The notes beneath the pieces are model-generated. The model worked only from the letters and a program-made list of their open reading frames with translations, was not told the DNA's origin and searched no databases. From NCBI RefSeq assembly GCF_016469035.1, contig NZ_JAEHJZ010000005.1, positions 1-64,000 of the forward strand: a stretch of 64,000 nucleotides of DNA, written 5' to 3'. Every line of letters begins with the position of its first letter. The first letter of the stretch is position 1. The stretch comes from Gelidibacter salicanalis (lineage in GTDB: Bacteria; Bacteroidota; Bacteroidia; Flavobacteriales; Flavobacteriaceae). This document shows, in pieces, positions 15,187 to 40,371 of this stretch. The position numbers and the translations under genes were made by a program.

Positions 15187-15207
15187 GCATTATGTATAAC
15201 ATAATGC
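15187..15207. promoter_or_regulatory. FadR/GntR-type operator upstream of susC1
   Basis: A perfect 9-bp inverted repeat, GCATTATGT then ATA then ACATAATGC, holding the GT-N3-AC core typical of FadR-subfamily GntR proteins. The same core, ATTATGTATWACATA, occurs between the gntR gene and the epimerase gene. It lies about 27 bp after a near-consensus promoter box TTCCTTTG (15153-15160), a place where a bound repressor could block transcription. Confidence 0.7.
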
Positions 15208-15257
15208 TTTTATACATAGCTAACTTAATTCAATCTAATTCATCAAAATTATTTCGT

Positions 15258-18200
15258 ATGAAAAAAAGAAATTCCAATATCATTTATATGATATTTATTT
15301 TACTTTTCGCTTTGCCTGCCCTAAGTTTCGGCCAGGAAAAGACAATCACAGGAACTATAATATCGTCCACGGATAAGATCCCGCTTACTGGGGCTACCGT
15401 TATTGTAAAAGGCACAAGTACAGGAGCCGTTACAGATTTTGACGGTAATTATACCATAACAGCTAATTCAGGAGATGTCCTAGTATTTAGTTTTGTAGGT
15501 TTTCAAAATAAAGAAGTTACTGTTGCAACCCAGACCGTTATTAATGTGTCTTTAGCGGAAGATACTGCAATGTTGGATGAAATCGTTATTACAGGATATG
15601 GGAAACAGAGTCGTGCAACTTTAACGACGTCCATATCTAAATTAGATACGCAAATTTTAGAAACATCGTCAAGATCAAATGCTGCAACTGCTTTGCAGGG
15701 CACGATTGCGGGCTTGAGGGTAACTAATAATACAGGGCAGCCAGGGTCTACACCTTCTATAGTTCTGCGTGGTGGAACAACATTTGGTGGCGGTGGATCA
15801 CCTTTGATTTTAATTGATGGGGTTCCAGGCTCATTTTATGCCTTAAATGCAGATGATATTGAATCAATTGAAGTTTTAAAGGATGCGGCAGCTACTGCAA
15901 TTTATGGAGCAAGATCGGCAAATGGTGTTATTTTGGTCACAACTAAAACAGGAAAAGTAGGAAGGTCTTCTATCAACTATAAATATAAATATAGTATGAA
16001 TAATAGAAGGGATGATCAAGAGTTCTTAGGGGCGGCAGACTTTATAAAGTATAACAGGCAAGCCGTTGCCTACTACAATGAAGTGACTGGCAGAACCAAC
16101 TTTGATTCCGGATTCTTGAATAATGGACGGACAGCATTTTCTACCGGTAACAATACGACAGATTCAGCCTTTACTACTCAATTTCTTACAGATGAAAATC
16201 GATATCTCTTGGGACAACCAGGATGGAAAACGGTAGAAGATCCATTAAATCCTGGTAAACAAATTTTATATTTAGATAATGATGTAAGTGATAATATTTA
16301 TCAGCAGAGCGAGATTAAAGATCATTATCTATCCTTTGATGGTGGTAACGAGAAGGGTACCTATTATTTAGGATTAGGATTTTTAGATAACGATGGATTG
16401 ATCTTAGGGTCAGGATTTAAAAGATATTCTGGTAAATTCAGTGGGTCTTATAAAATAAAAGAGAATTTAAGGGTCAACTCAAATATTCTATACGCGCATT
16501 CTAATTTGAGTAGAAGTCCTTTAGGCAGTGATGATACAGTGTTTAGAAGATTTGCCGGACAAGCACCCACTTCAAGAACTTATGACACTAATCCTGATGG
16601 AACTATGTCAACAATTTTAAGTCCTGGAACTAATACTGGGTTTGGTAATCCATTATATTATCAAGATAAATTTGTCAGAAAAAATTTAGAACAACGTTTA
16701 ACTGCTTCTGTAGGTGTGGATTGGGATATTTTAAAAAGTCTAACAGCATCGGTGCAGGGCAGTCATTTTACAATCAATAATCATAATGAGTTTTTCGCTA
16801 AAGCTTTTCGTCAAGGGAGTACTTCAGCTACGTTAAATACATCCCGTGATGCATCCACAAGTTTAACAAGAACTTTAAGAAATCAGGTAACAGCTACTTT
16901 GGCTTACACTAAGAAAATTGGAAATCATAATTTTAATGCCTTATTGGGAACAGAATATTTTAAAGAAAACGTATTTAGTTCTTATGCTGCAACGAAAGGG
17001 TCTCCAACAGATTTAATTTTCACCCTTAACGCAGGAGCTGAACCTACAGGAGCCTCAAGTTATGAAACTGAATATGCACTAGTTTCCACATTTGGTAGAT
17101 TACTGTATGATTTTGATAGTAAGTATTTATTTTCCGCAACGTTTAGACGTGACGGTTCATCACAATTGGGGAATGAAAAGTTTGATTTTTTTCCAAGTGT
17201 TTCTCTGGGGTGGAATGCGCACAATGAGGAATTTATCCAAAACTCATTTATTGGTGGCTTTGTATCTAGGCTTAAGCCAAGGGTAAGTTATGGTTCTAAT
17301 GGTAATCTTCAAGTGATTTCTGATCGAGGTAATTTCCTTGTTTTTGGTTCTTATGGCTCACAAGGAACATACAATGGCCAAACTGGTTACGGAAATACTG
17401 GTCTCCCAACCTTAGATCTCGTTTGGGAAAAATCAACAACATTTAATGTTGGATTGGACCTCTCATTTTTTGATAATAGAATTAATTTTATTGCAGATGT
17501 GTATTCAAGAGATGTGAAAGATAAATTAGCAGATTTAACATTGCCTTATTACACAGGGTTTGGAAGTATATTGACTAATAACGGAACACTTAGGAATAAA
17601 GGCTTTGAATTAGAAATGAATGCTGATATTATTAGAAACGATAATTTAACTTGGAATATTGGGGCTACTGTAACAACCAATAAAAATTATGTCATTAAGT
17701 TGCCTGAAAATGATAACCCTTTAAACCGACAAGGAGGGACAGAGATTTTTAATCCAGCAACTGGCCAGAACGAGTGGGTAGGTGGTTTGCAAGAAGGTCA
17801 ACGTGTAGGGAATGATCTTATTGTTACTTATGAACAAGACTATATTTACGCAGATCAAGCAGCAGTCGATGCCCATGCTACTAGGGTAGATGAATTATTG
17901 AATGACCCTACAAAACGTTTTCCTGGAGATGTGGCGTGGGTGGATCAAAATGGAGATAATATAATCAATAGTTTAGATAGAAAAGTTATTGGTAGAGCAA
18001 CCCCTAATTTTGTAGGAGGTTTAACCACTAGCTTAACCTATAAAAACTTTAATTTATTTGTCAAAACAGATTTTGCGACAGGTCACATGATCAATAATCA
18101 TATCAGAGCTAAAGGGTATGCACAAACACAAGGGAATTTAAATCAACCTATTGAAGTATTGAATTCTTGGACACCAACAAATACCAATACAGATCTACCA

Positions 18201-18488
18201 CGTTTTGTGTTTGTAGATGCTCAAGCAAATATACTGAGAGGTGCCACGGGTTCCACTCGGTTTTGGGAAAAAGGCGACTACTTGGCTTTAAGGGAGGTAA
18301 CCTTAAGTTATAACATCCCAGCAACATACTTTAATGATGTCATAAATAACCTGAGTGTTTATATTACAGGTTCCAATTTACATTATTTTAAGTCCTATAG
18401 TGGTGATTCACCAGAAGAAGGGGGGGTGCAACTCGGTGAGTTTCCAATGCCAAGAACAATAACTATAGGGTTAAACGTATCATTTTAA
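15258..18488 (+). CDS. susC: SusC-family TonB-dependent outer-membrane receptor (first pair)
   Basis: 1076 residues from ATG 15258, chosen because it begins a clean signal peptide (MKKRNSNIIYMIFILLFALP, cut near SFGQ); the longer frame from 15192 would overlap the operator. A carboxypeptidase-regulatory-like domain (about 28-115, GTSTGAVTDFDGNYTI), a plug (LDEIVITGYGKQSR onward, with the SusC phrase DDIESIEVLKDAAATAIYGA) and a 22-strand barrel ending TIGLNVSF follow. No N-terminal signalling extension is seen, so it is not coupled to an anti-sigma factor. Role: TonB-driven import of a sialylated or related glycan, with the SusD protein 12 bp downstream. Confidence 0.94.
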   Translation: MKKRNSNIIYMIFILLFALPALSFGQEKTITGTIISSTDKIPLTGATVIVKGTSTGAVTDFDGNYTITANSGDVLVFSFVGFQNKEVTVATQTVINVSLAEDTAMLDEIVITGYGKQSRATLTTSISKLDTQILETSSRSNAATALQGTIAGLRVTNNTGQPGSTPSIVLRGGTTFGGGGSPLILIDGVPGSFYALNADDIESIEVLKDAAATAIYGARSANGVILVTTKTGKVGRSSINYKYKYSMNNRRDDQEFLGAADFIKYNRQAVAYYNEVTGRTNFDSGFLNNGRTAFSTGNNTTDSAFTTQFLTDENRYLLGQPGWKTVEDPLNPGKQILYLDNDVSDNIYQQSEIKDHYLSFDGGNEKGTYYLGLGFLDNDGLILGSGFKRYSGKFSGSYKIKENLRVNSNILYAHSNLSRSPLGSDDTVFRRFAGQAPTSRTYDTNPDGTMSTILSPGTNTGFGNPLYYQDKFVRKNLEQRLTASVGVDWDILKSLTASVQGSHFTINNHNEFFAKAFRQGSTSATLNTSRDASTSLTRTLRNQVTATLAYTKKIGNHNFNALLGTEYFKENVFSSYAATKGSPTDLIFTLNAGAEPTGASSYETEYALVSTFGRLLYDFDSKYLFSATFRRDGSSQLGNEKFDFFPSVSLGWNAHNEEFIQNSFIGGFVSRLKPRVSYGSNGNLQVISDRGNFLVFGSYGSQGTYNGQTGYGNTGLPTLDLVWEKSTTFNVGLDLSFFDNRINFIADVYSRDVKDKLADLTLPYYTGFGSILTNNGTLRNKGFELEMNADIIRNDNLTWNIGATVTTNKNYVIKLPENDNPLNRQGGTEIFNPATGQNEWVGGLQEGQRVGNDLIVTYEQDYIYADQAAVDAHATRVDELLNDPTKRFPGDVAWVDQNGDNIINSLDRKVIGRATPNFVGGLTTSLTYKNFNLFVKTDFATGHMINNHIRAKGYAQTQGNLNQPIEVLNSWTPTNTNTDLPRFVFVDAQANILRGATGSTRFWEKGDYLALREVTLSYNIPATYFNDVINNLSVYITGSNLHYFKSYSGDSPEEGGVQLGEFPMPRTITIGLNVSF

Positions 18489-18500
18489 AACTTTTACACA

Positions 18501-20012
18501 ATGAAAAAATATATATACATATTTATAGCGGTAATTACTTTGAGTGCTTGTGAAAGCGAACTTGAAATAAAAAGCCCTAGCGAATTAACAGCTGCTGGTT
18601 TCTGGGATACTGAGGAAGGCGCAAAAGCAGCTCATACTGGTTTGTATGGCACGTATCGGTTTAGTAACTATACATTCTGGTTGTTAGGTGAAATAAGAAG
18701 CGATGTTTGGGGAGGTGATACTTTTGAGTCAGCAAGTGCGCTTGATCTTATAAGATCTAACTTTACGGTTACAACAGCACCTTTTGGTGGATGGGCGGGG
18801 CTGTATTCTAATATGCATAAGCTCAATGATTTTATCAAAAATGTACCTAACGTGCCTTTTACCAAAGAAGAAGAGAAAAATCACTTAATGGGACAGGCGT
18901 ATGGTTTGAGAGCTTTTTATTATTACACTCTTTTGAAAACATGGGGTGGTGTTCCAATTGTTTTAGAACCATTGAGCACTGTAGATCCTGCAGGATTGAG
19001 TAGAGCAAGATCGTCTCAAAGTGAGGTAATGGCCCAAATAAAAATGGATATCACGGCTTCTTTAAGTGCATTTGGGTCAGATAACAGTTTTTGGGAGGGT
19101 AGCAATGTCTATTGGTCCAAAGCGGCTTCCTTGACCTTGAAAGGAGATGTGTATATCTGGTCTGGAAATTTAATGGGTGGCGGGAATGCCGATTTTTCGG
19201 AAGCTAAGACAGCACTTGAGCAAATTTCATCTTTAGGGGTGAGCTTAGAGCCAAGTTACGCTAGTTTATGGGGCATAGATAATGAAGATAATAGTGAATT
19301 TATATTTTCAGTGCAATATAAAGAGAATGAGTTTTCCAACTTTTATAATAGCTTTACGGGAAGATCAACAGAAATTAATCCTGCGTTTGATGATAGTGGC
19401 GCATCTATGAATGGTTTCATCATTAATGGCGCTAATAGGTTTGGGCCATCAGAAAAAACATTATTAACGCTTGACGATAATGAAGATACACGTAAAGCAG
19501 TTAACTTTATATACTTATATGCAAATGATAATGAAGGTGCCGGATATCCTAACTATAATGCCGCTAATTACTTTGGAGCGGTATTTAAGAAGTTTCTAGG
19601 TGTTGAAGATGGGACTGGTGGAAGGATTTTCGAAAATGATGTACCTCTATACAGATATGCTGACGTTGTATTAATGTTAGCAGAAGCTAAGAATTTATTA
19701 GGTGAAGATCCTTCTGCCGAAATTAATCAAATTCGTGAAAGAGCTTACGGTGCAGATTATGACCCTGCAGTACATGGGTATGTCAATAGCTCGCCAACAG
19801 CTAATGCCAACGCCATTTTAAATGAGCGTTATAAAGAGTTTATTGGTGAAGGTAAAAGATGGTGGGATTTAAGACGCGCTGGAAACAGTTTTGTTATAGA
19901 TAACATCAGTTTTTTAAACCCTGGAGATGAGTATAAATTAATATTACCAATCACTAATGATATGATTGGAAGAAACCCATTGTTGGAACAAACACCTGGG
20001 TATACAAATTAG
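18501..20012 (+). CDS. susD: SusD-family glycan-binding surface lipoprotein (first pair)
   Basis: 503 residues. Signal peptide with lipobox LSAC (Cys17) for a lipid anchor. The family pattern is clear: SPSELTAAGFWDTEEGAKAA near the start, TPR-like helices, and near the end the RagB/SusD phrase INQIRERAYG, then NERYKEFIGEGKRWWDLRR and LPI. It caps the SusC barrel and presents glycan. Immediately after it are hairpins of the dispersed repeat, so transcription into nanA may be reduced or re-initiated. Confidence 0.94.
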   Translation: MKKYIYIFIAVITLSACESELEIKSPSELTAAGFWDTEEGAKAAHTGLYGTYRFSNYTFWLLGEIRSDVWGGDTFESASALDLIRSNFTVTTAPFGGWAGLYSNMHKLNDFIKNVPNVPFTKEEEKNHLMGQAYGLRAFYYYTLLKTWGGVPIVLEPLSTVDPAGLSRARSSQSEVMAQIKMDITASLSAFGSDNSFWEGSNVYWSKAASLTLKGDVYIWSGNLMGGGNADFSEAKTALEQISSLGVSLEPSYASLWGIDNEDNSEFIFSVQYKENEFSNFYNSFTGRSTEINPAFDDSGASMNGFIINGANRFGPSEKTLLTLDDNEDTRKAVNFIYLYANDNEGAGYPNYNAANYFGAVFKKFLGVEDGTGGRIFENDVPLYRYADVVLMLAEAKNLLGEDPSAEINQIRERAYGADYDPAVHGYVNSSPTANANAILNERYKEFIGEGKRWWDLRRAGNSFVIDNISFLNPGDEYKLILPITNDMIGRNPLLEQTPGYTN

Positions 20013-20086: not shown

Positions 20087-20164
20087 CAAAACATAAAAGC
20101 GAAGCGCATTATGTTTTGTTGGATGTCCCGATAGCTACGGGATAATCCCGCTTTTTGGCGGGAT
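20087..20164. repeat. Two-hairpin intergenic repeat, copy 2
   Basis: Hairpin A: CAAAACATAA (20087-20096) and TTATGTTTTG (20109-20118) around AAGCGAAGCGCA. A TCCCG/CGGGA hairpin (20126-20142) is inserted, then hairpin B ATCCCGC-TTTTTG-GCGGGAT (20145-20164), followed by TTTTAGTTGAAC. It separates susD1 from nanA and may act as an attenuator or terminator, so that surface proteins and lyase are made in different amounts. Confidence 0.75.
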
Positions 20165-20239
20165 TTTAGTTGAACTTGCCATAAAGCATTTATTAATTTA
20201 GCAAACGTAAAAATAACCCAAAGAGATTGATTAAAAATA

Positions 20240-21145
20240 ATGAAGATAAAAAATTTAATAGCAGCAACATACGCTCCCATGCACCAAGATGGTTCATTAA
20301 ATACTAGTATTATTGGGGAGTATAGTAAGTTCTTAGTAAGAAATAAAATCTCTGGAGTGTTCATGAACGGCTCTACGGGAGATTTCACGTCCTTATCTAG
20401 CGACGAAAGAAAGGAAATAACAACCGCATGGTCAGAAAATAAATCCTCAGATTTATATCTAATAGACCACGTTGGTGATTCAAGTTTAAAAGTTGCCAAA
20501 GACTTAGCAACGCATGCAGCTGATAAAGTAGATGCCATTGCCGTTTTAGCACCATTTTATTTTAGGTTGAACACTATTGAAAAGTTGGTGCAGTATTGTA
20601 AAGAGGTTGCGGCATGCGCACCTAATTTACCGTTTTATTATTACCACATTCCTGTATTGAGCGGTGCCAATTTAAATATGCTCGACTTTTTAAAAGCAGC
20701 ATCTAAAGAAATTCCCAATTTAGAAGGCATCAAGTTTACTAATAACAACCTGATTGACTATTTGCACTGCAAAAACTTTGAAGGTGGCAAATACAATATC
20801 CTTTTTGGTTTTGATGAAATTTTCCTGTCAAGTTTACCGCTTGGCGCTGATGGATGGGTAGGCAGTACTTACAACCACTTGGCTCCGGTATATTACAAGA
20901 TCAAAACATTATTTGAGGAAGGCAAAATGGCGGAAGCTGCTGCCTTGCAAACAAAAGCCATAAGATTTGTTGAAATTTTGGATGGTTACGGTGGGTTCAA
21001 CGGCGTCGCTAAAGGCTTTATGAAAACCTTTGGTATTGATTGTGGACCGAGTAGATTTCCGCATACCACACTTTCTGATGCTGTTTATACTGATATTAAA
21101 ACAGAATTGGAGAGTATTGGATTATTAGAGCTTTTAAGCAAATAA
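20240..21145 (+). CDS. nanA: N-acetylneuraminate lyase (dihydrodipicolinate synthase family)
   Basis: 301 residues, cytoplasmic TIM barrel. Schiff-base Lys165 in GIKFTNNN, catalytic Tyr near 135 in FYYYHIP, and the carboxylate-binding GSTGD (44-48) are present; Lys165 falls at the same number as in E. coli NanA. The reaction splits N-acetylneuraminate into N-acetylmannosamine and pyruvate. Context (sialidases, epimerase, YhcH) supports lyase over dihydrodipicolinate synthase. It lies between the post-susD1 hairpins and a sialidase gene 96 bp on. Confidence 0.93.
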   Translation: MKIKNLIAATYAPMHQDGSLNTSIIGEYSKFLVRNKISGVFMNGSTGDFTSLSSDERKEITTAWSENKSSDLYLIDHVGDSSLKVAKDLATHAADKVDAIAVLAPFYFRLNTIEKLVQYCKEVAACAPNLPFYYYHIPVLSGANLNMLDFLKAASKEIPNLEGIKFTNNNLIDYLHCKNFEGGKYNILFGFDEIFLSSLPLGADGWVGSTYNHLAPVYYKIKTLFEEGKMAEAAALQTKAIRFVEILDGYGGFNGVAKGFMKTFGIDCGPSRFPHTTLSDAVYTDIKTELESIGLLELLSK

Positions 21146-21241
21146 TCTCTATTTGTAATTTTAAAATGATTTTGCCTGCTGAAATTTTATCTCTAAAGGA
21201 TTGACTTATGAATTTTTATAAACCATTAAAAACTTATATCT

Positions 21242-22411
21242 ATGAGCAGCAATTTGATTAGTAAGTATGTTTTAGTTTTATGCTTGGTCTTTTTTTTAGA
21301 AGTTAAAGCTTCAGAGAGTCCTTTAGACTCCATCCGTAAAACAATTGTTTTCAATGCGGGAGATGATGGAATTGACTCTTATCGCATTCCTACGCTTACC
21401 ACTAGCAAGAAAGGAACCTTACTTCTTTTTACAGAAGCTCGTAAAGTGAGCTCTACTGATAAGACGCCCACAGATATAGCTTTAAAAAGAAGTGAAGATG
21501 ACGGAAAAAGTTGGTCCAAAATTCAAATCTTAACCAACAGTGGCGAAAACGCCTTCATGGATCCAGTTGCTTTAGTAGATAAAGTTACTGGAAGAATATT
21601 TCTTTTTACAACCTTATGGCCTTCAGAGGATCATAGCAAGTTGAAAAATACCGCATGGGTCATTATATCTGACAATGATGGTATAAGTTGGAGTAAGCCT
21701 CGTGAAATCACCAAAGAAATCGTTGCGCCTAATCATTATATCGGCGGATTTGGTCCAGGTGCAGGCCTTCAAATGCAAGGGAGTCGGTTTAAAGATAGGC
21801 TGATAGTGCCAACTAGGCAAACTGATGGTAAAATCTCCAAAAACAGAACAGTATATAGCGACGATCATGGTGAGACTTGGGAAATTGGAACTAGCGCTCC
21901 TGATGGTGGAGAGTACCAAATTTCAGAATCTCCATATAATGTTTTAAGATATAATCTCAGAGCAGGTAAAGGTAAGCGCACGGTGGCCACAAGCCGAGAT
22001 GGAGGGATGACATGGAGTAATAGTCATATTGATTTCCGCTTGCAATCATCAGTTGATTATGGTGGCTGTCAGGGTAGTATGTTAGGAATTGATACTATGC
22101 TGTTTTATGTTGGGCCTGCTGGGGGATTAGGTGATGCTAATCATGAAGATCGTCAGAACCTGTTTATTTATCGTAGTTTAAATGGCGGTGAGACTTGGGC
22201 AAATGATTATTTGTTGCATGATAAATCAGCAGGCTATAGTTGCATCACACAATTGTCAGATGGGCGTCTTGCCATTGTCTTTGAGGCATCAGATAGTAAT
22301 GGGTTTCCAAAAATGACTCCCGGCAACCGTCCCCCTGGGTGGATGCGTTTAGATGTTATTATTCTTCCTAAGGAAATAGTTAATAAAGACACTTGGTTCA
22401 ATCATTTGTAA
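21242..22411 (+). CDS. nanH: Secreted sialidase, GH33 (first)
   Basis: 389 residues with a signal peptide (about 1-23). The six-bladed propeller is marked by the RIP motif (SYRIP, Arg48) and five Asp-box repeats: SEDDGKSWS, SDNDGISWS, SDDHGETWE, SRDGGMTWS, LNGGETWA. A candidate nucleophile Tyr lies in SAGYSCITQL near the end. It frees terminal sialic acid from glycans, probably in the periplasm. It is rather unlike the second sialidase at 26184 and its start lacks a lipobox, so linkage preference or location may differ between the two. Confidence 0.92.
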   Translation: MSSNLISKYVLVLCLVFFLEVKASESPLDSIRKTIVFNAGDDGIDSYRIPTLTTSKKGTLLLFTEARKVSSTDKTPTDIALKRSEDDGKSWSKIQILTNSGENAFMDPVALVDKVTGRIFLFTTLWPSEDHSKLKNTAWVIISDNDGISWSKPREITKEIVAPNHYIGGFGPGAGLQMQGSRFKDRLIVPTRQTDGKISKNRTVYSDDHGETWEIGTSAPDGGEYQISESPYNVLRYNLRAGKGKRTVATSRDGGMTWSNSHIDFRLQSSVDYGGCQGSMLGIDTMLFYVGPAGGLGDANHEDRQNLFIYRSLNGGETWANDYLLHDKSAGYSCITQLSDGRLAIVFEASDSNGFPKMTPGNRPPGWMRLDVIILPKEIVNKDTWFNHL

Positions 22412-22712
22412 AACTCCATTCTTTCTTGTAAAAACCCCGACTCCTTTTAAAATTGTACGATGGAAACTTATATATTTAGGTCTGGCTTCCGCTAATCTCG
22501 TTTAGGTTGGGTCACACAAAAAGAAATTGAACATCGATAAAAAAATGAATTGCTTAACTATAGACCACAATGACCCAATTAGAATTATTGATTTAAAAAT
22601 CACTTGATAAAATTGCAGACCTGAGGTGTCAAAAAAGAATAATTAATATGAAATATACCAAAGTTTGAATCAACATTTTGAACTTGGTTTCTTAATCTTT
22701 AAACATGTTATA
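22412..22712. other. Intergenic stretch before the YhcH-type gene
   Basis: Holds no gene that I can support. An upstream in-frame ATG at 22665 would lengthen the next protein by 16 residues but the family normally starts at MIVDKIENA. No strong terminator or operator is visible; an own promoter is possible given the length. Confidence 0.5.
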
Positions 22713-23171
22713 ATGATTGTAGACAAAATTGAAAATGCACAGCTCTATCAAGGCCTTCACCCAGGAATTGATAAAGCTTTAGAGTATATTAAAAACACCA
22801 ATTTTTCTGATTTACCTTTCGGAAAGCACGAGATTGAAGGCGACGCTGTGTTTGTCATTTTAAAGGAATACGAAACAAAGCAAATAGACGGAAACCTGTT
22901 AGAGTCTCATCTTAAATACATTGATGTTCAATATATTATTGAAGGAGTGGAACAAATGGGCGTCACTATGCGTACGGATCAATTGCCAAAAAAAGCATAC
23001 GATGCCGACGACGATTATATGCTGTTCGATGAATCGTATGACATCATAACCGTTAAGGAAGGTATGTTTGCTATCTTTTTTCCTGACGATATCCACATGC
23101 CAGACATGACTACAGGCTCACCATCACATGTGAAAAAAGCTGTCTTTAAAGTTAAAATTCAGAATTCTTAA
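22713..23171 (+). CDS. nanQ: YhcH/NanQ-type protein, probable sialic acid anomerase
   Basis: 152 residues from ATG 22713, where the typical family start MIVDKIENA begins. The cupin-like core keeps metal-ligand type residues in ESHLKYIDVQYIIEG and FFPDDIHMPDM. E. coli YhcH (NanQ) is known to speed interconversion of N-acetylneuraminate anomers: sialidases release one anomer and the lyase uses the other. Its place beside nanA and nanH fits. The last 20 bp overlap the end of the convergent gntR gene, so the two transcripts are antisense at their ends. A role on another sugar (YiaL/EbgC type) is less likely here. Confidence 0.88.
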   Translation: MIVDKIENAQLYQGLHPGIDKALEYIKNTNFSDLPFGKHEIEGDAVFVILKEYETKQIDGNLLESHLKYIDVQYIIEGVEQMGVTMRTDQLPKKAYDADDDYMLFDESYDIITVKEGMFAIFFPDDIHMPDMTTGSPSHVKKAVFKVKIQNS

Positions 23172-23871
23172 GGACTCTTTCAAAATGTGGTTCTAAATGC
23201 AAGGCCAAGCCCTTTCTGAACTTCTTGATATCATTAGCCTGTAAATAATTTAAAAGATCGCGATGGGTCACAAACTTTTTGGAATATTTATAAGTTTTAG
23301 CATCTAATAATTTATAGTCATGGACATATTTAAACACTGGCAATAAAATATGTTGCACGCGTTTTAAGGTTCTGTTTCCAGACATTTCGTATAATTTTCC
23401 ATGAAATGCCACTTCATTCTGTAAGCTAAACACATGGGCTTCCGGTTGGTTTTTTTCCATCCGTTCTACAATTTCTGTAAGTTCCACCAAATCGGCATCA
23501 GTTTTTCGGGCAAAAACCAAATCAACCATACCCATTTCTAAAATGAGTCGAAGTTCAAAGATGTCTTTCAAGGCGCGATCGCCTAATAAATTGGTTTCTA
23601 TAACCTTTTCAAAATTCTTGATGATATCTGGCTGAGAAAGAACCATGCCCTTGTGCTTTTTTGAATCGATAATGCCAATGGTGCGGAGCCTTGTTAAAGC
23701 CTCTCTAATTACCGTTCTACTCACACCAAGCGTTTCTGCAAACTCCATTTCTTTAGGAATCGCATCGCCAACTTTAAGATTATTATTTTTGATATATTCT
23801 GTAATGCTTATTTCTACCTTATCTACTAGCGTTAAATTAGTTAGGGGTTTTAGAGCAATGCGATCTTTCAT
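23152..23871 (-). CDS. FadR-subfamily GntR transcriptional regulator of the sialic acid genes
   Basis: 239 residues. N-terminal winged helix (about 15-80) with the recognition segment LGVSRTVIREALTRL; C-terminal FCD domain with likely metal/ligand His residues in EVAFHGKLYEMSGN, THRDLLNYL and LHLEPHF. The effector is likely sialic acid or an intermediate such as ManNAc. It is divergent from the epimerase gene, and a GT-N3-AC palindrome lies in the shared promoter region, pointing to autoregulation. The same core upstream of susC1 suggests one regulator controls both arms. Confidence 0.92.
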   Translation of the reverse strand: MKDRIALKPLTNLTLVDKVEISITEYIKNNNLKVGDAIPKEMEFAETLGVSRTVIREALTRLRTIGIIDSKKHKGMVLSQPDIIKNFEKVIETNLLGDRALKDIFELRLILEMGMVDLVFARKTDADLVELTEIVERMEKNQPEAHVFSLQNEVAFHGKLYEMSGNRTLKRVQHILLPVFKYVHDYKLLDAKTYKYSKKFVTHRDLLNYLQANDIKKFRKGLALHLEPHFERVLKNSEF

Positions 23872-23887
23872 AAGAATTTATTTTGAG

Positions 23888-23948
23888 CAAATGTAAATTA
23901 TAAATCTAAATTCGCTAAGTTTGTATTATGTATTACATATGATACAAA
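23888..23948. promoter_or_regulatory. Divergent promoters and GntR operator between gntR and epimerase genes
   Basis: TAAGTTTG (23916-23923, plus strand) matches the Bacteroidota -7 box TAnnTTTG and points to the epimerase gene. TACATTTG on the minus strand (23895-23888) matches it too and points to gntR. Between and overlapping them is the 13-bp palindrome TATGTATTACATA (23927-23939), flanked by TTTGTAT (920-926) and ATACAAA (942-948). No good -33 TTG was found, so strength may depend on a regulator. Confidence 0.7.
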
Positions 23949-24004
23949 TATAATAATTTTTTGACTTGTAAGTAGGACTTTTAATTTTCAACAATTATAA
24001 TGCA

Positions 24005-25174
24005 ATGAATTACACTTCACTTTATAAAAATACACTTTTAAACGATATTATCCCGTTTTGGGAAACTTACTCTATAGATGCTGAACACGGGGGCTATTTT
24101 ACATGTTTGGATAAGACAGGTAAAGTTTATGATACCGACAAGTTTATGTGGCTTCAAGGGCGCCAGGCGTGGACGTTCTCCATGCTTTATAACACCGTCG
24201 AAAAAAATGAGAATTGGTTGAAGTTGGCTAAACACGGTATCGATTTTATCATCAAACACGGCATGGACAAACACGGAAATTTTTATTTCTCAACCACCAG
24301 AGAAGGAAACCCCTTAGTGCAACCCTATAATATATTTTCAGACTGTTTCGCCGCCATGGCATTTAGTCAATACGCCATGGCGTCTGGGGATGAAGAGATC
24401 AAGAAGCTCGTTAAACAAACCTATCTTAACATTCTTAAAAAGAAAGACAATCCTAAAGGGAGTTATGAGAAATCAACAGGGGAACGCCCGTTGAAAAGTT
24501 TTTCACTACCCATGATCTTGTCAAACTTAGTGTTGGAATTGGAAGGGGTTTTGGATGAAGAAGAAGTGAATAAAACCATCGATTTCAGTATCAATGAAGT
24601 TATGAATGTCTTTTTGGATAATGAATCTGGTTTGGTGTACGAATTTGTCCGTCCTGATGGCACCCATGAAGACAGTTATAATGGCCGTCTTTTAAATCCT
24701 GGGCACGGCATCGAAGCCATGTGGTTTATGATCGATATTGGTGTTAGAAGAAACAATACTGAACTTATCGATAAAGCCGCAGATACTATTTTGCGTATCT
24801 TAGATTACAGTTGGGATAAAGAGGACGGCGGTATTTTTTATTTTATGGACGTGCTAGGAAAGCCGCCACAACAATTGGAATGGGATCAGAAGCTATGGTG
24901 GGTACATTTGGAAGCTTTAGTTGCACTAGCCAAGGCTTATGAGCAGACCGGTAGAAAGGAATTAATGGCATGGTATGAAAAGGTGCACGATTATGCCTGG
25001 GGTCATTTTTCAGATCCTGAAAATGGCGAATGGTATGGGTACCTCAACCGTCAAGGCGAGGTGCTTTTAGATCTGAAAGGCGGCAAATGGAAAGGTTGTT
25101 TCCACGTGCCTAGAGCCATGTGCCAATGTTGGAAATCATTCGAAAAAATAGAACATAAAAAAGTAACATCATGA
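24005..25174 (+). CDS. N-acylglucosamine 2-epimerase (AGE/RenBP family)
   Basis: 389 residues, no signal peptide, an (alpha/alpha)6 barrel of the AGE family. Conserved His and neighbours are seen in [37 protein letters not shown] and [12 protein letters not shown]. It interconverts N-acetylmannosamine and N-acetylglucosamine, the step after the lyase. Bacteroides-type sialic acid routes use this kinase-independent epimerase rather than phosphorylation first; a hexosamine kinase is not present in the window. It overlaps the next gene by 4 bp (ATGA), so translation is coupled. Confidence 0.92.
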
Positions 25175-25944
25175 CGAAGACTATACGACCTTATGTGTTG
25201 GCAGAAACCAATTGGAAGTCTGTTAAAGACACCAATTATACCGTGGCCATTTTGCCGTGGGGCGCTACGGAAGCCCACAATTACCATTTGCCGTATGCTA
25301 CCGATACTATTCAAGCGAAATATGTAGCTATTGCTGCTGCGGAACAAGCATGGGCTAAAGAGGCGAAGGTCATCGTGTTGCCAACCATCCCTTTTGGAGT
25401 GAATACAGGTCAAATGGACATTTCATTGTGTATGAATATGAATCCCAGCACACAATATGCCGTCTTGAGGGATGTGGTTGAGGTGTTGGATGGCCAAAAC
25501 ATTCAAAAACTAGTGATTGTCAATGGGCATGGCGGTAATAATTTTAAGCAGATGATTCGCGAATTGAGCTTAGAATTTCCCAACGTATTTGTGTGTGCCC
25601 TCAATTGGTTTCAGGCAGCCAATGCTAAAGACTATTTTGATGAACCTGGAGATCATGCTGGTGAGCTGGAAACTTCGGCAGTGCTGCACATTATGCCACA
25701 TTTGGTATTGCCACTGGAACACGCTGGAAACGGAAGTGCCAAACAATTTAAAATTAAAGGCCTAAAAGAAGGTTGGGTAAGTTCCCAACGCCAATGGACA
25801 CAAGTCACTGAAGATACCGGTGTGGGCAATCCGACAAAAGCGACTGCAGAAAAAGGCAAAACTTTTTTAGACGCCGTAGTAAAAAACATCACTGAATTTT
25901 TCGAAGAATTACATCATGCGAATGTTCATAATATGTACGAATAA
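25171..25944 (+). CDS. Creatininase-family metal-dependent amidohydrolase
   Basis: 257 residues. The two-metal site is intact: Glu34 and His36 in [15 protein letters not shown], Asp45, His120 in VNGHGGN and a Glu in [10 protein letters not shown]; these match creatininase positions. The family opens cyclic or simple amides. Creatinine use is unlikely here. The overlap with the epimerase (4 bp) says its substrate belongs to the sialic acid pathway, for example an amide or lactam/lactone form of sialic acid or an N-acyl group, but that is inference. Confidence 0.88.
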
Positions 25945-26087
25945 ATGATAAAGGCTGTCAAAATAGATCGGGACTGATTCGAGATCTTCAAAATGAATTT
26001 ATTCATATGAAAAAACAGTATGAGACTAATTGGGCAAATCTATTTTAAACTCAGATTGTCCATCATTAAAGTTACAATCAAGTCTTT

Positions 26088-26142
26088 GTTCTCTTATCTA
26101 ACAGCGAAGCGCCTGCCTGCCGGCGAGGCAGGGTCTTAATTC
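26088..26142 (+). repeat. Intergenic repeat with CAGCG(A/C)AGCG core, longer form
   Basis: TCTAACAGCGAAGCG ... GTCTTAATTC matches, in opposite orientation, the element at 61781-61814. Here a block CCTGCCTGCCGGCGAGGCAGG, a near-perfect hairpin, is inserted before GTCTTAATTC. It lies between the creatininase and the second sialidase genes. Confidence 0.65.
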
Positions 26143-26183
26143 TATATTAAATAAGAAAACAATAAAATAATACATTTTTAACC

Positions 26184-27311
26184 ATGAGAAAACTAATTGC
26201 ATTACTGATTCCAGTATTCCTTTTTAATTGCGGGGTCAAAACCCAAAATACGAGCACTACTGATGGAGCGCCCGTCTTTCAAGATTTGTTCAACACTTCA
26301 ATGACTGAAGGCGTGGAATGTTACCGTATCCCGGCTATTATTACCGCTCCAAATGGCGATGTCATTGCTGCTATTGATGAGCGTGTACCGGGCTGTGGCG
26401 ATTTGAAATGGAGTAAAGATATTAATATTATTGTCAGACGTAGTGCTGATAATGGAAAAACATGGTCAGACATTGAAACGGCTGTAGATTTTCCTTTCGG
26501 ACAATCGGCGTCAGATCCGTCATTGATTGTAGACCATGTGACCAATGATATTTTTATGTTTTATAATTACATGAATTTAGATACTGAAAAAGACATCTAT
26601 TACCTACATTATGTAAAAAGTTCTGACGATGGTAAAACTTGGAGTGAACCCGTAGATATTACCTCTCAAATAGCCAAACCAGAATGGCACGAAGATTTTA
26701 AATTCATCACTTCTGGTAGAGGTATTCAAACCCGCTCTGGTAAATTACTACATACCATGGTGAATTTAAACAGTGGCTTGCATTTATTTGGTAGTGATGA
26801 CCATGGTAAAACGTGGTATTTTATAGACACACCAATTCAACCTGCCGACGAATCTAAGGTCATTGAGCTTGTTGATGGCACCTTAATGATCAACGCTCGT
26901 GTTAATGGTGAAGGCTTACGTTATGTGCACACGTCTAAAGACGAAGGCAAATCATGGACTACCGTTCCTGCGCCTGAGTTGGTTGATCCGGGTTGTAATG
27001 CCAGCATCATTCGTTATACAGCAATTGAAGATGGGTATAAAAAGAATAGATTGCTTTTTTCTAATGCGAAGTCTGAAAAAGGCCGTGTAAATATGACCGT
27101 TCGTGTAAGTTATGACGAAGGTAAAACGTGGACTGAGGGCAAAACAATTTACGAAGGTCCTTCTGCCTATTCAGATATGACCATTCTTGAAAATGGCGAT
27201 ATCGGATTGTTTTTTGAGCAAGACGGCTATACCAAGAACCCATTTGTGAGTTTTTCACTAAATTGGTTGACTGATGGTAAGGATACCTATCAAAAACCTA
27301 AGAAAAAATAA
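26184..27311 (+). CDS. nanH: Lipoprotein sialidase, GH33 (second)
   Basis: 375 residues. Likely lipoprotein with Cys16 in VFLFNCGVK. RIP motif CYRIP (Arg48), a DER motif (AIDERVPG) and Asp boxes SADNGKTWS, SSDDGKTWS, SDDHGKTWY, SKDEGKSWT and SYDEGKTWT mark the propeller; a likely nucleophile Tyr is in GPSAYSDM. This is the standard bacterial NanH layout without extra domains. Lipid anchoring and the surface SusC/SusD pairs suggest action at the outer membrane. The LrgA gene follows after 27 bp. Confidence 0.94.
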   Translation: MRKLIALLIPVFLFNCGVKTQNTSTTDGAPVFQDLFNTSMTEGVECYRIPAIITAPNGDVIAAIDERVPGCGDLKWSKDINIIVRRSADNGKTWSDIETAVDFPFGQSASDPSLIVDHVTNDIFMFYNYMNLDTEKDIYYLHYVKSSDDGKTWSEPVDITSQIAKPEWHEDFKFITSGRGIQTRSGKLLHTMVNLNSGLHLFGSDDHGKTWYFIDTPIQPADESKVIELVDGTLMINARVNGEGLRYVHTSKDEGKSWTTVPAPELVDPGCNASIIRYTAIEDGYKKNRLLFSNAKSEKGRVNMTVRVSYDEGKTWTEGKTIYEGPSAYSDMTILENGDIGLFFEQDGYTKNPFVSFSLNWLTDGKDTYQKPKKK

Positions 27312-27338
27312 TCTTAGTTCTTACAGCGCTGAAAATTA

Positions 27339-27704
27339 ATGAATCCACTAAGTAGTCGGTTACGAATGCTCAAAGCGTTCCTTTGGATTTTTTTATTCCT
27401 CGGAATAGGAGAGTTGATCAGCTACGTTACTGATGTTCCAATTCCTGGGAATATCTTGGGGATGATTTTAATTTTCAGCGCTTTAAAATTAAAGCTGATC
27501 CATCTCAAAGACGTAAAACCTGCTTCAGACCAGTTATTGAAGTATATGGTGTTGTTTTATGTGCCTTACGGTGTGGGACTCATGTCTTATTTTGATTTTA
27601 TAAGCTCGTATTGGATGGTTCTTTCTGTTATTGCAGTTGTTACAACGCTGCTCACCCTTTACATTACAGCGCTCGTACAACAAAAACTGGAAAAACATGA
27701 TTGA
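27339..27704 (+). CDS. lrgA: LrgA/CidA-family membrane protein
   Basis: 121 residues, about four membrane helices, with the family phrases GELISYVTDVPIPGNILGM and PYGVGLMSYF. LrgA/LrgB pairs were first linked to holin-like control of lysis, but some act in small-molecule movement: PftA/PftB of Bacillus subtilis move pyruvate. Here the pair stands in a sialic acid operon whose lyase makes pyruvate. It overlaps lrgB by 8 bp. Confidence 0.9.
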   Translation: MNPLSSRLRMLKAFLWIFLFLGIGELISYVTDVPIPGNILGMILIFSALKLKLIHLKDVKPASDQLLKYMVLFYVPYGVGLMSYFDFISSYWMVLSVIAVVTTLLTLYITALVQQKLEKHD

Positions 27705-28398
27705 CTTCTATCAGCTTCCCATTTTTGGTATCCTCCTAACTGTTGTCGTTTTTTTTGCTGCGCGAGCTTTACGGAACAACATAAAATTCGTTCTATTTAA
27801 TCCTGTCTTAATAGCCATAACACTCATTATTTTGTTTTTGGTGGTTTTTGATATCCGTTTTGAGGACTATAACAAAGGCGGTAAATATTTGAGTTTTTTT
27901 CTAGGACCGGCAATTGTAGCGCTTGGTGTCCTCTTTTATGAAAAGTACCAGTTGATCAGGCACAACATATATCCCTTTTTACTGGCCGTAGGTTGTGGCG
28001 GTTTGATCAGTATTGCTTCGGTCTCCTTGATTTCAATTGTGATGAACGCGCCGGATGTCATAATTAGATCACTAGTGTCCATGTCGGTCACCACGCCAAT
28101 CGCGATTGAAATCACCAAAATCACTGAAGGTATTCCGTCCTTAACGGCAGGCGTTGTGATTGCGGTAGGAGTTTTTGGAAATGCCTTTGGATCGGGGTTT
28201 TTGAAATTAGTGGGCATCCAGAGCCAGACTGCTGTAGGAACGGCACTCGGAACGGCAGCACATGGTATCGGTACAGCGCGCGCCATTGAGATTGGACCCT
28301 TACCTGGTGCTTATAGCGGATTGGCCATGTGTGTTAATGGGATTCTGACCACACTTATTTCGCCATATGTTGTACTTTGGATTGTAGGATCTATTTAA
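27697..28398 (+). CDS. lrgB: LrgB-family membrane protein
   Basis: 233 residues from ATG 27697; the longer frame from 27631 would run through the lrgA coding sequence and lacks family likeness. Eight or so membrane helices. Family motifs SLVSMSVTTPIAIEITK, GVFGNAFGSGFLKL and GTALGTAAHGIGTARAIE are intact. It should form one membrane complex with LrgA. In this setting a role in pyruvate or other anion transport is an inference from context, not from sequence. Confidence 0.9.
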   Translation: MIDFYQLPIFGILLTVVVFFAARALRNNIKFVLFNPVLIAITLIILFLVVFDIRFEDYNKGGKYLSFFLGPAIVALGVLFYEKYQLIRHNIYPFLLAVGCGGLISIASVSLISIVMNAPDVIIRSLVSMSVTTPIAIEITKITEGIPSLTAGVVIAVGVFGNAFGSGFLKLVGIQSQTAVGTALGTAAHGIGTARAIEIGPLPGAYSGLAMCVNGILTTLISPYVVLWIVGSI

Positions 28399-28408
28399 AA
28401 AATTCAAG

Positions 28409-30496
28409 ATGAAAAATTCCTCAAATAACTGCCGGATAATTTTAATGACTTTGATGTTGTGTTTTTCTTTATTATTAAATTCCCAAACTATAAAAGTTGC
28501 CTGTGTGGGCGATAGTGTGACCTATGGCGCGGGGATTGAGGATCGTGAAGAAAACGCCTATCCGCAACAACTGCAAGAGCGTTTAGGCGCAAATTACGAA
28601 GTTGGCAATTTTGGGTTTTCAGGGGCAACCCTACTTAAAAATGGTCATAAGCCGTATTGGAAGACAGCCGAATTTAAGCAATCACAAGATTTTGCGCCTA
28701 ACATTGTCATCATTCATTTAGGACTGAATGATCAAGGCAATAATAATTGGCCAGATCACCACGCCGAATTTGAACAGGATTATTTGGAGATGATTGCGCT
28801 CTATAAAAATCTGCCATCGAAGCCTGAAGTTTTGATTTGCAAAATGACGCCAACCTTTTCTGGGCACCATTGGTTTGAAGAAGGCATGCGCGAAAGTTTT
28901 AAGGAAATCCAGACGACAATAAAAGGCATTGCCGAAAAAGCAGAAGTTCAAGTCGTCGATTTGCACGAACCGCTCTACCGTTTTCCTGAATATTTCCCTG
29001 ATAATTTGCATCCAACTAAGGAAGGTGCGGCAATAATTGCCCAAAAAGTGTTTAGTGCCATTACTGGCAATTATGGGGGATTAAAACTCCCTGTGATCTA
29101 TGGTGAAAACATGGTATTGCAACGTAATGAACCCATGAGTTTTAATGGTACAGCCAATACGGATGAAACTATTACTGTTCGATTTAACAACGTCACGAAA
29201 ACAACAAAAGCTGATGTGCATGGCAAATGGCAGGTCAATTTTCCTCCAATGCCAGCAGGCGGCCCTTTTGCCTTAAAATTTGCAACGGCTAAAACATCTG
29301 TTGAAATTAAATCGGTTAATATAGGAGAAGTGTGGTTGGCTTCTGGGCAGTCTAATATGGATTTTAAAGTCCGTGATATGGACAATGCGGCGACCGTTTT
29401 AAAAGACTCCCTTAATCCGCAAGTGTTCTTATTCTCCATGGACGGAAAAGTGTTGTCTGAGAAACCTTATACGGAAGCCGAGCTTAAAGATTGCAATGCC
29501 AATGCGTATTTTAAGAACTCAGGATGGACCGCGTCTACAACCAAAAACCTCGACAATTTTTCGGCAGTAGCCTATGCATTCGCCTATAGACTTCAAAAGA
29601 AATTGGGGATTCCTGTCGGGATTATTTGCAATGCTGTGGGTGGGGCGCCCATTCAAAGTTGGATCAGTAGGGAGGCAATGGAACAACATCCTGAAACTGT
29701 GAATCTGTTAAATGATACCCATTTACATCCAAAAGTAGATACTTGGGTTGCGGAGCGGGCAGCCTTAAATATGAAAGGTGATTCTAAGAGTGGGATTAGG
29801 GCCAGACATCCCTATCACCCAACAATGCTCTTTGATGCAGGCATTATGCCCATCAGAGACTACAGGATCAAAGGTGTAATTTGGTATCAAGGCGAATCGA
29901 ATACCGAGCATGTCAAGTTACATTCAAAACTATTAAAACTGTTGGTAGACGATTGGCGTAACCATTTCAAAACACCAGAGTTGACATTTTATTACGTGCA
30001 GTTGAGCAGTATCAATAGGCCAAATTGGGGTCTATTTAGAGATTCCCAACGCCGATTATTGGAAATTCCTAACACAGGCATGGCGGTCAGTTTGGACGTG
30101 GGCCATGCATCCGATGTGCATCCAAAACAGAAATGGGTTGTAGGAGAGCGCCTTTCGAGAATTGCACTTCATAACACTTATGATGTCGAAATTCCTTTCT
30201 CTGGACCACTTTTAGATTATATAAATGTCAATAAGAATAGGTTGGAAATCCATTTTAAACACGGACAAGGCCTGAAAACTCTGGAAAACACTTGTGTAAA
30301 TGATATTTATATTGCCGGACCGGACAAAAAATTTGTTCCCGCACAGACCAAAATAGTGAATGACATTTTGCAAGCATGGTCTCCGGAAATTGAAAATCCT
30401 CGATTTGTAAACTATGGGTATACCTCCTTTTCGGAAGGGAATTTAGTCAATAGTGCGGGATTGCCAGCATCCACATTTTCAAATAGTACTAATTAA
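28409..30496 (+). CDS. Two-domain esterase: SGNH hydrolase plus sialate O-acetylesterase
   Basis: 695 residues with a signal peptide (about 1-26). N-terminal SGNH/GDSL domain (about 28-213): GDSVTYG with Ser nucleophile, GLND, and DNLHP with the catalytic Asp/His. From about 218 a sialate O-acetylesterase (SASA) domain: beta-sandwich lead-in, GQSNMDF with Ser nucleophile, WYQGESN and SDVHP. Two different acetylesterases on one chain could remove O-acetyl groups at different sialic acid positions. Spacing of 10 bp from lrgB and 7 bp to the next gene shows one operon. Confidence 0.9.
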   Translation: MKNSSNNCRIILMTLMLCFSLLLNSQTIKVACVGDSVTYGAGIEDREENAYPQQLQERLGANYEVGNFGFSGATLLKNGHKPYWKTAEFKQSQDFAPNIVIIHLGLNDQGNNNWPDHHAEFEQDYLEMIALYKNLPSKPEVLICKMTPTFSGHHWFEEGMRESFKEIQTTIKGIAEKAEVQVVDLHEPLYRFPEYFPDNLHPTKEGAAIIAQKVFSAITGNYGGLKLPVIYGENMVLQRNEPMSFNGTANTDETITVRFNNVTKTTKADVHGKWQVNFPPMPAGGPFALKFATAKTSVEIKSVNIGEVWLASGQSNMDFKVRDMDNAATVLKDSLNPQVFLFSMDGKVLSEKPYTEAELKDCNANAYFKNSGWTASTTKNLDNFSAVAYAFAYRLQKKLGIPVGIICNAVGGAPIQSWISREAMEQHPETVNLLNDTHLHPKVDTWVAERAALNMKGDSKSGIRARHPYHPTMLFDAGIMPIRDYRIKGVIWYQGESNTEHVKLHSKLLKLLVDDWRNHFKTPELTFYYVQLSSINRPNWGLFRDSQRRLLEIPNTGMAVSLDVGHASDVHPKQKWVVGERLSRIALHNTYDVEIPFSGPLLDYINVNKNRLEIHFKHGQGLKTLENTCVNDIYIAGPDKKFVPAQTKIVNDILQAWSPEIENPRFVNYGYTSFSEGNLVNSAGLPASTFSNSTN

Positions 30497-37200: not shown

Positions 37201-37333
37201 GATGATTTCTAGTCATTTGAATGGTATTGATCCAGAATCTGTTTACTCTACGGGAACTAACGCTACTGGTTTTGAGAGTTTATCATCTCCATCAACAAGA
37301 AGTGTTTTTTTAAATTTAGTAGTTAATTTTTAA
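34211..37333 (+). CDS. susC: SusC-family TonB-dependent outer-membrane receptor (second pair)
   Basis: 1040 residues. Signal peptide (about 1-22, cut near MQAQ), carboxypeptidase-regulatory-like domain (GTSKGVTTDFDGNYSIEV), then KLDEVVVTALGIKRERKSLG, the plug with SEDIESLSVLKGASAAALYG, and a barrel ending FLNLVVNF. The ALGIKRE variant marks a different SusC branch from the first pair (GYGKQ), so a different glycan is likely. A 204-bp gap follows the esterase gene, with no clear terminator, so it may be on its own promoter. Confidence 0.94.
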   Translation: MTKKVLNLLFVLGILCTYGMQAQTTVKGVVVDAASSLGLPGVSVVVKGTSKGVTTDFDGNYSIEVSDTESILQFSYVGFTTQEIAVNGNSTINVSLIEDVSKLDEVVVTALGIKRERKSLGYSVQEVKGETLTDTREPNVVNALSGKIAGVQIIKGSNGPAGSSKIVLRGNSSLTGDNQPLIVVDGVPMDNFTGASNNDFFNPSSDLGNGLGDLNSEDIESLSVLKGASAAALYGSRAGNGVILITTKTGKGKKGLGISYSSTTGFESIFMTPDLQNNFAQGSNGIYDPQSGTSWGPRMDGQSEIDYSGNSVVLKPYDNIGNFYNNGFSQTHAVSFQQQVGEGSSFYTSISNTSDKSNIPGAELERLNVLTRGVSKFGEDKKWTIDAKVQYANTIARNRPLAGSNIRNAYGTIAQLPRSIDIRDFSEGRDEFGNHIWYQEDASTVNPYWAEKFNLNEDSRDRFLLNGSLKYEFTDWLRAEVNAGADLYTTNGESKQYAGSPLSNNGRYSLSKNTFIERNYSTLIVASKDNLFGKFGGSVTLGGNLMSQNSSGLNSNSGELEVPDLFSLNNGQNSASVGQGFSEKKINSLYGLFQLNYDGYLFVDVTARNDWSSALSKANRSFFYPSVSGSLVISDMIRKTGGETPSWFDFGKVRASYATVGNDLDAYQLYNSFGIGSDANGNTTAGTNNTLLNPDIKSELIKSLEFGFETRMFNNRVALDFTWYKSNATNQILDLALDPFSGFNGRKINAGDVQNTGIELGINADIIRSDDFNWNMSVNFSNNKNTIEALDQDVVQFGLGGFDNLSVIGVVGGTYGEIRGTKYVRVEDSNSPHFGKIVLDGDGLFVSDTDKFKLGDQQADALLGITNTFSYKNFTLGFLIDARIGGEIFSGTNLVLQESGNAAVTVINGQREDIVVDGVVSDGNGGFTPNTVAVSPQQYWEAITGRTGNLGINEANIYDATNVRLRNVSLNYNFPTKTLKNLPIQNLKLGISANNVWMISSHLNGIDPESVYSTGTNATGFESLSSPSTRSVFLNLVVNF

Positions 37334-37351
37334 TATTTAAAATAATTGATT

Positions 37352-40327: not shown

Positions 40328-40371
40328 AACATATTTTTTAAATAGCCGCCATTATGAGCAGGTGTAAAACT

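Follow-up and report, generated by a model that had tools for sequence, protein, structure and literature searches.

How does sialic acid reach the cytoplasm of a marine bacterium whose sialic acid operon holds no recognisable inner-membrane carrier gene, and what do lrgA and lrgB do in such an operon? The window, meaning the whole 64,000-nucleotide stretch of Gelidibacter salicanalis DNA analysed here (contig NZ_JAEHJZ010000005.1, positions 1 to 64,000), contains a nan locus between two susC-susD pairs that includes lrgA and lrgB (Table 1). An earlier note on this sequence had pointed out that LrgA and LrgB are the only polytopic membrane proteins between susC1 and susC2, that no NanT, TRAP or SSS carrier is encoded there, and that the pair may therefore carry a sialic acid-related anion, or else release or balance pyruvate. 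Both observations hold: in a six-frame hydropathy scan of 15192-37333 (open stretches of ≥60 codons) only LrgA and LrgB have at least three transmembrane (TM)-like segments, and Pfam gives no match to NanT, TRAP or SSS genes between susC1 and susC2. The idea of a missing carrier falls, however, since a SiaT-like NanM-SSS fusion is encoded on another contig (C314) behind a predicted NanR operator. Sialic acid very probably enters through this fusion, and we lean, with modest confidence, towards a scheme in which LrgAB is a nan-operon-borne facilitator of the PftAB/YohJK type for C3 monocarboxylates, most likely pyruvate.

Linkage of lrgAB to nan genes

The lyase, the AGE epimerase, a sialidase and a NanR-like regulator occur together in the window, the combination by which we recognise a nan operon. 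AGE passes the NCBIfam equivalog cut-off (644.6 against 600). The NanA-like protein, of the DHDPS family, scores under both NCBIfam nanA cut-offs (153.3 against 281 and 128.8 against 382), so the name NanA rests on family plus context. LrgA and LrgB belong to the CidA/LrgA and CidB/LrgB families: their genes are adjacent, and both proteins exceed the Pfam gathering scores (28 for PF03788 and 25 for PF04172, the latter in the frame 27631-28398), the PF03788 match being the only one in the whole genome. The ATG at 27697, which gives lrgB an 8-base overlap with the end of lrgA, is a likelier start than the TTG at 27631 from which the earlier note's frame begins. Neither protein reaches the named NCBIfam LrgAB, CidAB or YohJK models, with best scores of 87.7 against 124 for LrgA (PRK01821, which we take to be YohJ) and 191.8 against 249.7 for LrgB (TIGR00659). 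The pair is presumably co-transcribed with the nan genes. Both lrgA and lrgB are under purifying selection, with dN/dS of 0.07-0.12 and 0.04-0.07, respectively, against six of the eight other Gelidibacter, where one LrgB value was not computable and synonymous sites were near saturation in several pairs.

We then placed the pair in a sample of 199 Flavobacteriaceae genomes, calling NanA at E ≤ 1e-50 and the fusion at E ≤ 1e-100. LrgB exceeds the Pfam cut-off in only 11 of these genomes, and NanA is found in 5 of the 11 as opposed to 11 of the 188 others (p 6e-4). The two share one locus in three of the 11 (the genome of the window, G013 and G142); in the other eight, the ~20 kb fetched shows no NanA. 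Named genomes, among which G. salicanalis is represented by the record of G013, were also scanned with an LrgB alignment; of the 215 loci obtained only the best 80 were kept, so the set favours close relatives, the closest among them being an uncultured Gelidibacter (94%) and G. sediminis (92%). All eight named Gelidibacter loci (L075-L082) contain lrgA and lrgB within the nan locus, a conservation that shows their placement there is not due to chance. At ≥52% LrgB identity there are 48 loci, and the DNA fetched for 14 of them includes NanA, AGE or the fusion (the eight Gelidibacter loci, L083, L085, L094, L107, L110 and L118). In three more (L100, L101 and L103), the contig of lrgB also carries the fusion at ~10 kb and NanA at ~26 kb from that gene, and two (L099 and L111) have sialidase and creatininase-like genes, with SASA and GH20 genes in addition in L111. 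The rest comprise 16 loci in which lrgAB has a creatininase-like neighbour without nearby nan genes, and 13 that have neither. No such genes were detected by tblastn with the window proteins at the other 32 of the 80 loci, several of which are short or one-sided.

The search of lrgAB neighbourhoods for nanA that the earlier note proposed thus finds the two linked in Gelidibacter, Arenibacter, Maribacter, Gramella and three further Flavobacteriaceae (L083, L085 and G142). That note would have given up its proposal had a dedicated carrier elsewhere been joined by a lack of such linkage; the carrier was found, the lack of linkage was not. Gene order varies among genera, with AGE, lrgA, lrgB and the fusion in succession in Arenibacter (L107 and L110). 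A midpoint-rooted LrgB tree was built from 62 chosen rows: the window, 59 of the 80 named loci and two more. A branch with 98/98 support sets apart 50 of them, namely the rows linked to nan genes, those with a creatininase-like gene only, and 13 further rows. The remaining 12, several of them also Flavobacteriaceae, are unlinked in the DNA available. A nan link may be ancestral, since both of the deepest rows in this group have one, yet these rows sit on long branches. Arenibacter certesii has two lrgAB copies, one near nan genes (L103) and one apart (L093). We found no description of a pairing of either LrgAB or a creatininase-like protein with sialic acid genes in searches of an open-licence library.

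A sialic acid carrier encoded elsewhere in the genome

The fusion, 869 amino acids long, joins a NanM/kelch domain to an SSF domain and is encoded at C314:7793-10402 (L068:7793-10402), on a separate contig from the nan locus. SSF genes number 10 in this genome, from 11 matched stretches of which two fall in one frame. The best PDB match of the fusion is SiaT, the ST5 SSS symporter for sialic acid of Proteus mirabilis (5NV9, E 1.1e-118), from which it differs by its fused N-terminal domain. It keeps SiaT residues T57, S60, T63, F78, R135, D182, S342, S343, S345 and S346, and so retains all of those that bind the carboxylate (S60, T63, R135) and the Na2/Na3 ions (57, 182, 342, 343, 345, 346), the residue roles being those given in PMC5931594. 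Six other pocket positions differ (T58 to L, G81 to L, Q82 to N, F243 to G, N247 to A and Q250 to T). Among the further substrate contacts T58, F78, Q82, N247 and Q250, only F78 is kept. The fusion is a putative transporter of N-acetylneuraminic acid (Neu5Ac).

The distribution of the fusion follows that of NanA almost perfectly. NanA is present in 16 of the 199 family genomes and the fusion in 14, every one NanA-positive (14 of 16 with NanA vs 0 of 183 without; Fisher p 1.1e-19); the two NanA genomes that lack it are G023, whose NanA has only 38% identity, and G170, which is 77% complete. Among 13 non-Gelidibacter genomes fetched, a set that leaves out G023, the fusion lies inside the nan locus in 12, the exception being a 10.5-kb contig of G170. 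Gelidibacter keeps it apart: in the genome of the window it is on another contig, in G013 some 80 kb separate it from nanA, and the DNA fetched for the eight named Gelidibacter nan loci does not contain it. All 25 NanA-positive genomes of the LrgAB clade carry the fusion (17 of 33 genomes searched, with L105 outside the search, plus the eight Gelidibacter with NanA in the locus), including eight whose lrgAB is away from the nan genes (L087, L090, L097, L102, L104, L108, L112 and L116). The other 16 genomes searched yielded no NanA, and only one of them, a metagenome-assembled genome (MAG; L111), has the fusion. LrgAB does not take the carrier's place in nan genomes; with the fusion present, carriage of Neu5Ac by LrgAB is therefore not needed.

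Two transporters in the window outside the stretch from susC1 to susC2, which the earlier note had not mentioned, were considered as carriers and rejected. The SSF protein at 43975-45852 has SGLT1 as its nearest PDB entry (E 6.1e-21), is only weakly similar to SiaT (1.5e-6) and lies in a GH92/GH130 setting, and the MFS protein at 52040-53353 is FucP-like. No protein of the genome exceeds the TIGR00891 cut-off for an Escherichia coli-type NanT (best 56.6 of 552.9), while Bacteroides-type NanZ and TRAP carriers were not searched genome-wide, which leaves room for a second carrier. The passages covered of PMC10017367 do not mention a fusion of the NanM-SSS type. The mutarotase-symporter fusion can be named as the likely sialic acid importer of marine, NanA-positive Flavobacteriaceae.

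Operator-like sites of the nan regulon

Several genera have a 16-base palindrome, TGTATTATGTNATACA, or a near variant of it in the nanR-AGE interval and ahead of nan or carrier genes. From its place, the motif is presumably bound by the GntR-type protein. The whole genome of G. salicanalis has three sites at one mismatch and none with fewer: C434:23922, C314:7620, which is 157 bp upstream of the ATG of the fusion, and C434:67922. The first two each score 18.5, and a simulated 1-Mb sequence contained none at ≥13. Sites at ≤3 mismatches number 86 in the genome and 86 in a reversed control, a comparison made at that level and giving no figure for one mismatch; weaker sites therefore mean little, and only the three one-mismatch sites carry weight. 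The operator was found with a looser pattern, a strict palindrome scan having missed it. The third site (L234:3922) lies ~60 bp before a 1044-aa frame that is SusC-like by length only, and may mark another target of NanR. At 15193, a weak operator-like site overlaps the susC1 start as listed.

Sites were also observed upstream of lrgA in other genera. In Galbibacter marinus, where lrgAB and nanA are on different contigs, a site begins 56 bp ahead of where lrgA is estimated to start, and at four Arenibacter/Maribacter loci sites lie 141-158 bp upstream of lrgA, though these may serve the divergent susC instead. No site scores ≥12 in L083, L085, L212, L213 or L225, despite the nan genes there. 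The motif can be used to assign further genes. A distant Bacteroidales locus without nan genes (L139) has an operator-like site upstream of lrgA as well.

Proposed role of LrgAB

Many LrgAB proteins carry an antiholin annotation, and which substrates they handle in the cell is a matter of debate. In the scheme that we favour, sialosides would pass the outer membrane via SusCD and be trimmed by the sialidases and the esterase. The NanM-SSS fusion, under the same predicted NanR control, would equilibrate and import free Neu5Ac; NanA would cleave this to N-acetylmannosamine (ManNAc) and pyruvate; and AGE would turn ManNAc into N-acetylglucosamine (GlcNAc). LrgAB would then let pyruvate across the inner membrane, for overflow relief and/or later re-uptake. 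The genes, their conserved linkage, the separate carrier gene, the operator-like sites and a weak fold similarity were computed here, and they suggest rather than fix the substrate of LrgAB and the direction of transport. The fold similarity concerns the predicted LrgB model, which one aligner finds similar to CitS, a carboxylate carrier of the 2HCT family, and which weakly resembles carboxylate and ion carriers; Foldseek gave no significant match with this model, and a sequence search of the PDB with LrgB gave no relative at E ≤ 1.

The closest known systems of this type have been described as follows. Bacillus subtilis PftAB (YsbAB) is a facilitator of pyruvate import and export (PMC5626966), Staphylococcus aureus LrgAB helps pyruvate uptake (PMC8805020, PMC12632267) and E. 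coli YohJK is a likely 3-hydroxypropionate exporter (PMC7642389). PftAB and the Streptococcus mutans and S. aureus LrgAB consist of the same two Pfam families in adjacent genes and share the link to pyruvate, while YohJK, source of the best NCBIfam match of LrgA, would have in common a C3 monocarboxylate substrate. Their control differs, however: PftAB and the S. mutans and S. aureus LrgAB are reported to be under LytST/LytSR (PMC5626966, PMC6790026) and YohJK is within the YieP regulon (PMC7642389), whereas the Gelidibacter pair belongs to a nan operon where a predicted NanR operator precedes AGE. The nan operons of Bacteroides fragilis and Tannerella forsythia share with that of Gelidibacter the lyase, AGE-type epimerase, SusCD-like NanOU, sialidase, hexosaminidase and O-acetylesterase, but use the MFS carriers NanT/NanZ (PMC3969230, PMC10017367) where Gelidibacter likely uses the fusion at its other locus. 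Relative to them, lrgAB and the creatininase-like gene are additions.

A second context comes from five Salinimicrobium loci (annotated by Pfam in L120 and by BLAST clusters in the others), where lrgAB always comes after a GH3/beta-lactamase-family fusion. NamZ is present in 4 of the 5, and an amidase, a NagB-PIG-L fusion and a ROK protein in 3 of the 5. L119 contains instead a sugar MFS, an enolase-superfamily protein, NlpC/P60 and MurQ (TIGR00274, 324 against 302), the last 7.4 kb from lrgB, and MurQ lies 28-32 kb off lrgAB on the same contig in L115, L117 and L120. NanA was not found in the four Salinimicrobium genomes searched. NanA yields pyruvate and MurQ yields D-lactate, so both the nan and the N-acetylmuramic acid (MurNAc) contexts release a C3 acid. 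The pyruvate half of the earlier proposal is accordingly strengthened, by the MurNAc context and weakly by the CitS-like predicted fold, while the half concerning carriage of sialic acid is not. An extension to the Flavobacteriaceae LrgAB clade as a whole, in which the pair would be a relief valve for C3 acids (pyruvate from sialic acid via NanA, D-lactate from MurNAc via MurQ), recruited per catabolic locus, sometimes under the sugar's own regulator and usually with the creatininase-like hydrolase as partner, is tentative, and we hold it to be rather doubtful as it stands. A clade beside pyruvate- or lactate-releasing enzymes offers a natural substrate test outside the Firmicutes. The MurNAc/peptidoglycan catabolic clusters with lrgAB span L119:483-10690 (with MurQ) and L120:1-11983 (with NamZ).

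Several points temper this reading. Pyruvate export by B. subtilis on glucose is independent of PftAB (PMC5626966), and S. mutans LrgAB is described as serving uptake, probably not export (PMC6790026). Most nan loci have no LrgAB, which makes the pair facultative. The peptidoglycan neighbours in Salinimicrobium may also speak for the older autolysis idea. Our confidence is slightly lower on account of that reading and of the published evidence against export.

The creatininase-like partner and alternative roles

The best-surviving alternative, though unlikely, is that LrgAB and the creatininase-like hydrolase together move another small acid of the pathway, for example acetate or glycolate derived from acyl groups. 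Plant PLGG1, derived from an LrgA-LrgB fusion, moves glycolate/glycerate (PMC5626966), and the hydrolase is a frequent and unexplained partner of the LrgAB clade. Creatininase-like genes are found in 38 of the 199 family genomes. Ten of these reach ≥60% identity: each belongs to a genome with NanA or LrgAB, eight lie ≤12 kb from NanA, and they occur in 6 of the 11 LrgB genomes vs 4 of the 188 others (p ~1e-6). The order creatininase-like gene, lrgA, lrgB without nan genes accounts for the 16 creatininase-only loci above (12 Salegentibacter, 3 Zunongwangia and one Flavobacteriaceae MAG). Speaking against a joint role, the partnership is broken on both sides: five nan loci have the creatininase-like gene but no LrgAB near (G021, G030, G115, G162 and the contig-limited G170), and the five Salinimicrobium lrgAB loci have no creatininase-like gene. 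The enzyme also has no assigned substrate, being closest in the PDB to 3lub and below all four NCBIfam equivalog cut-offs listed. In 11 of 20 fetched loci, its paralogues at 50-58% identity adjoin a conserved neighbourhood of FtsH, phosphatidylserine decarboxylase and fatty acid hydroxylase genes, which is uninformative about the nan-type enzyme.

We give little weight to lrgAB being a passenger, a conserved pair without a role in sialic acid use. The rarity of LrgB in the family, its varied contexts and its absence beside most NanA genes would fit, but purifying selection, retention of the pair in differing gene orders and the operator-like sites that precede lrgA in Arenibacter, Maribacter and Galbibacter argue for a function. 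Slightly less credible still is a holin/antiholin-like regulator of murein hydrolases, which has the historical annotation behind it, the finding that CidA and LrgA promote endolysin-induced lysis and make vesicles leak (PMC8805020), and the peptidoglycan-degrading neighbours in Salinimicrobium; the repeated linkage to sialic acid catabolism lacks an obvious murein logic, and the operator-like sites before lrgA in five nan-positive genomes and the weak likeness of the LrgB model to carriers count against it too. Import of Neu5Ac or a related anion by LrgAB, which would suit the sole polytopic pair of the stretch, its nan linkage, a carboxylate family handling an acid sugar and a SiaT-like protein whose substrate is not proved given its six changed positions, is highly improbable beside a fusion that keeps the SiaT carboxylate and sodium residues and tracks NanA, and with LrgAB kept in genomes without NanA (16 of the 41 examined).

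Other features of the window

Table 1. Features of the nan locus of G. salicanalis in window coordinates
Feature	Position	Strand	Evidence and remarks
susC1-susD1, outer-membrane uptake pair	15192..20012	+	Pfam scan
nanA-like sialic acid lyase, pyruvate-releasing	20240..21145	+	PF00701, 147.4 bits
BNR sialidase 1	21242..22411	+	PF13088; missing in 3 of 8 other Gelidibacter loci
YhcH/NanQ-like, sialic acid anomerase family	22665..23171	+	PF04074; later start possible; NF040884 110.4 < 160
nanR-like GntR/FCD regulator	23152..23871	-	PF00392 and PF07729; best NCBIfam match NanR, 86.2 < 260
Predicted NanR operator TGTATTATGTATTACA	23922..23937	.	Between nanR and AGE; one mismatch
AGE, N-acyl-D-glucosamine 2-epimerase	24005..25174	+	PF07221; NF052547 644.6 > 600
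Creatininase-like hydrolase	25171..25944	+	PF02633, 202.2 bits; PDB 3lub, E 8.7e-66
BNR sialidase 2	26184..27311	+	PF13088; directly upstream of lrgA
lrgA, LrgA/CidA-family small membrane protein	27339..27704	+	PF03788, 98 bits; 121 aa; 3 TM-like segments by hydropathy
lrgB, LrgB/CidB-family membrane protein	27697..28398	+	PF04172, 234.6 bits; 233 aa; 6 TM-like segments
GDSL and SASA sialate O-acetylesterase-like protein	28409..30496	+	PF13472 and PF03629; 10 bases after lrgB
GH20 hexosaminidase	30504..33215	+	PF00728
susC2-susD2 pair, end of stretch	34211..39253	+	Pfam scan

An inverted repeat, AATCCCGC/GCGGGATT, lies at 20144-20165 between susD1 and nanA and is terminator-like. Beyond the nan locus, an N-glycan-type cluster at 41717-61781 (Pfam coverage leaves out 56736-59066) encodes GH92, the SGLT-like SSF protein, GH130, fucosidases, GH18, FucP and an asparaginase-family protein. 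A gene for a LytTR response regulator and a His_kinase gene, of the kind by which lrgAB is controlled in Firmicutes, are found at 39617-41433, 11 kb downstream of lrgAB. Elsewhere in the family, G142 has a GDSL-type esterase and a sulfatase near nanA (L063:2143-4871), and a related sulfatase adjoins lrgB in Galbibacter (L062:7721-9358).

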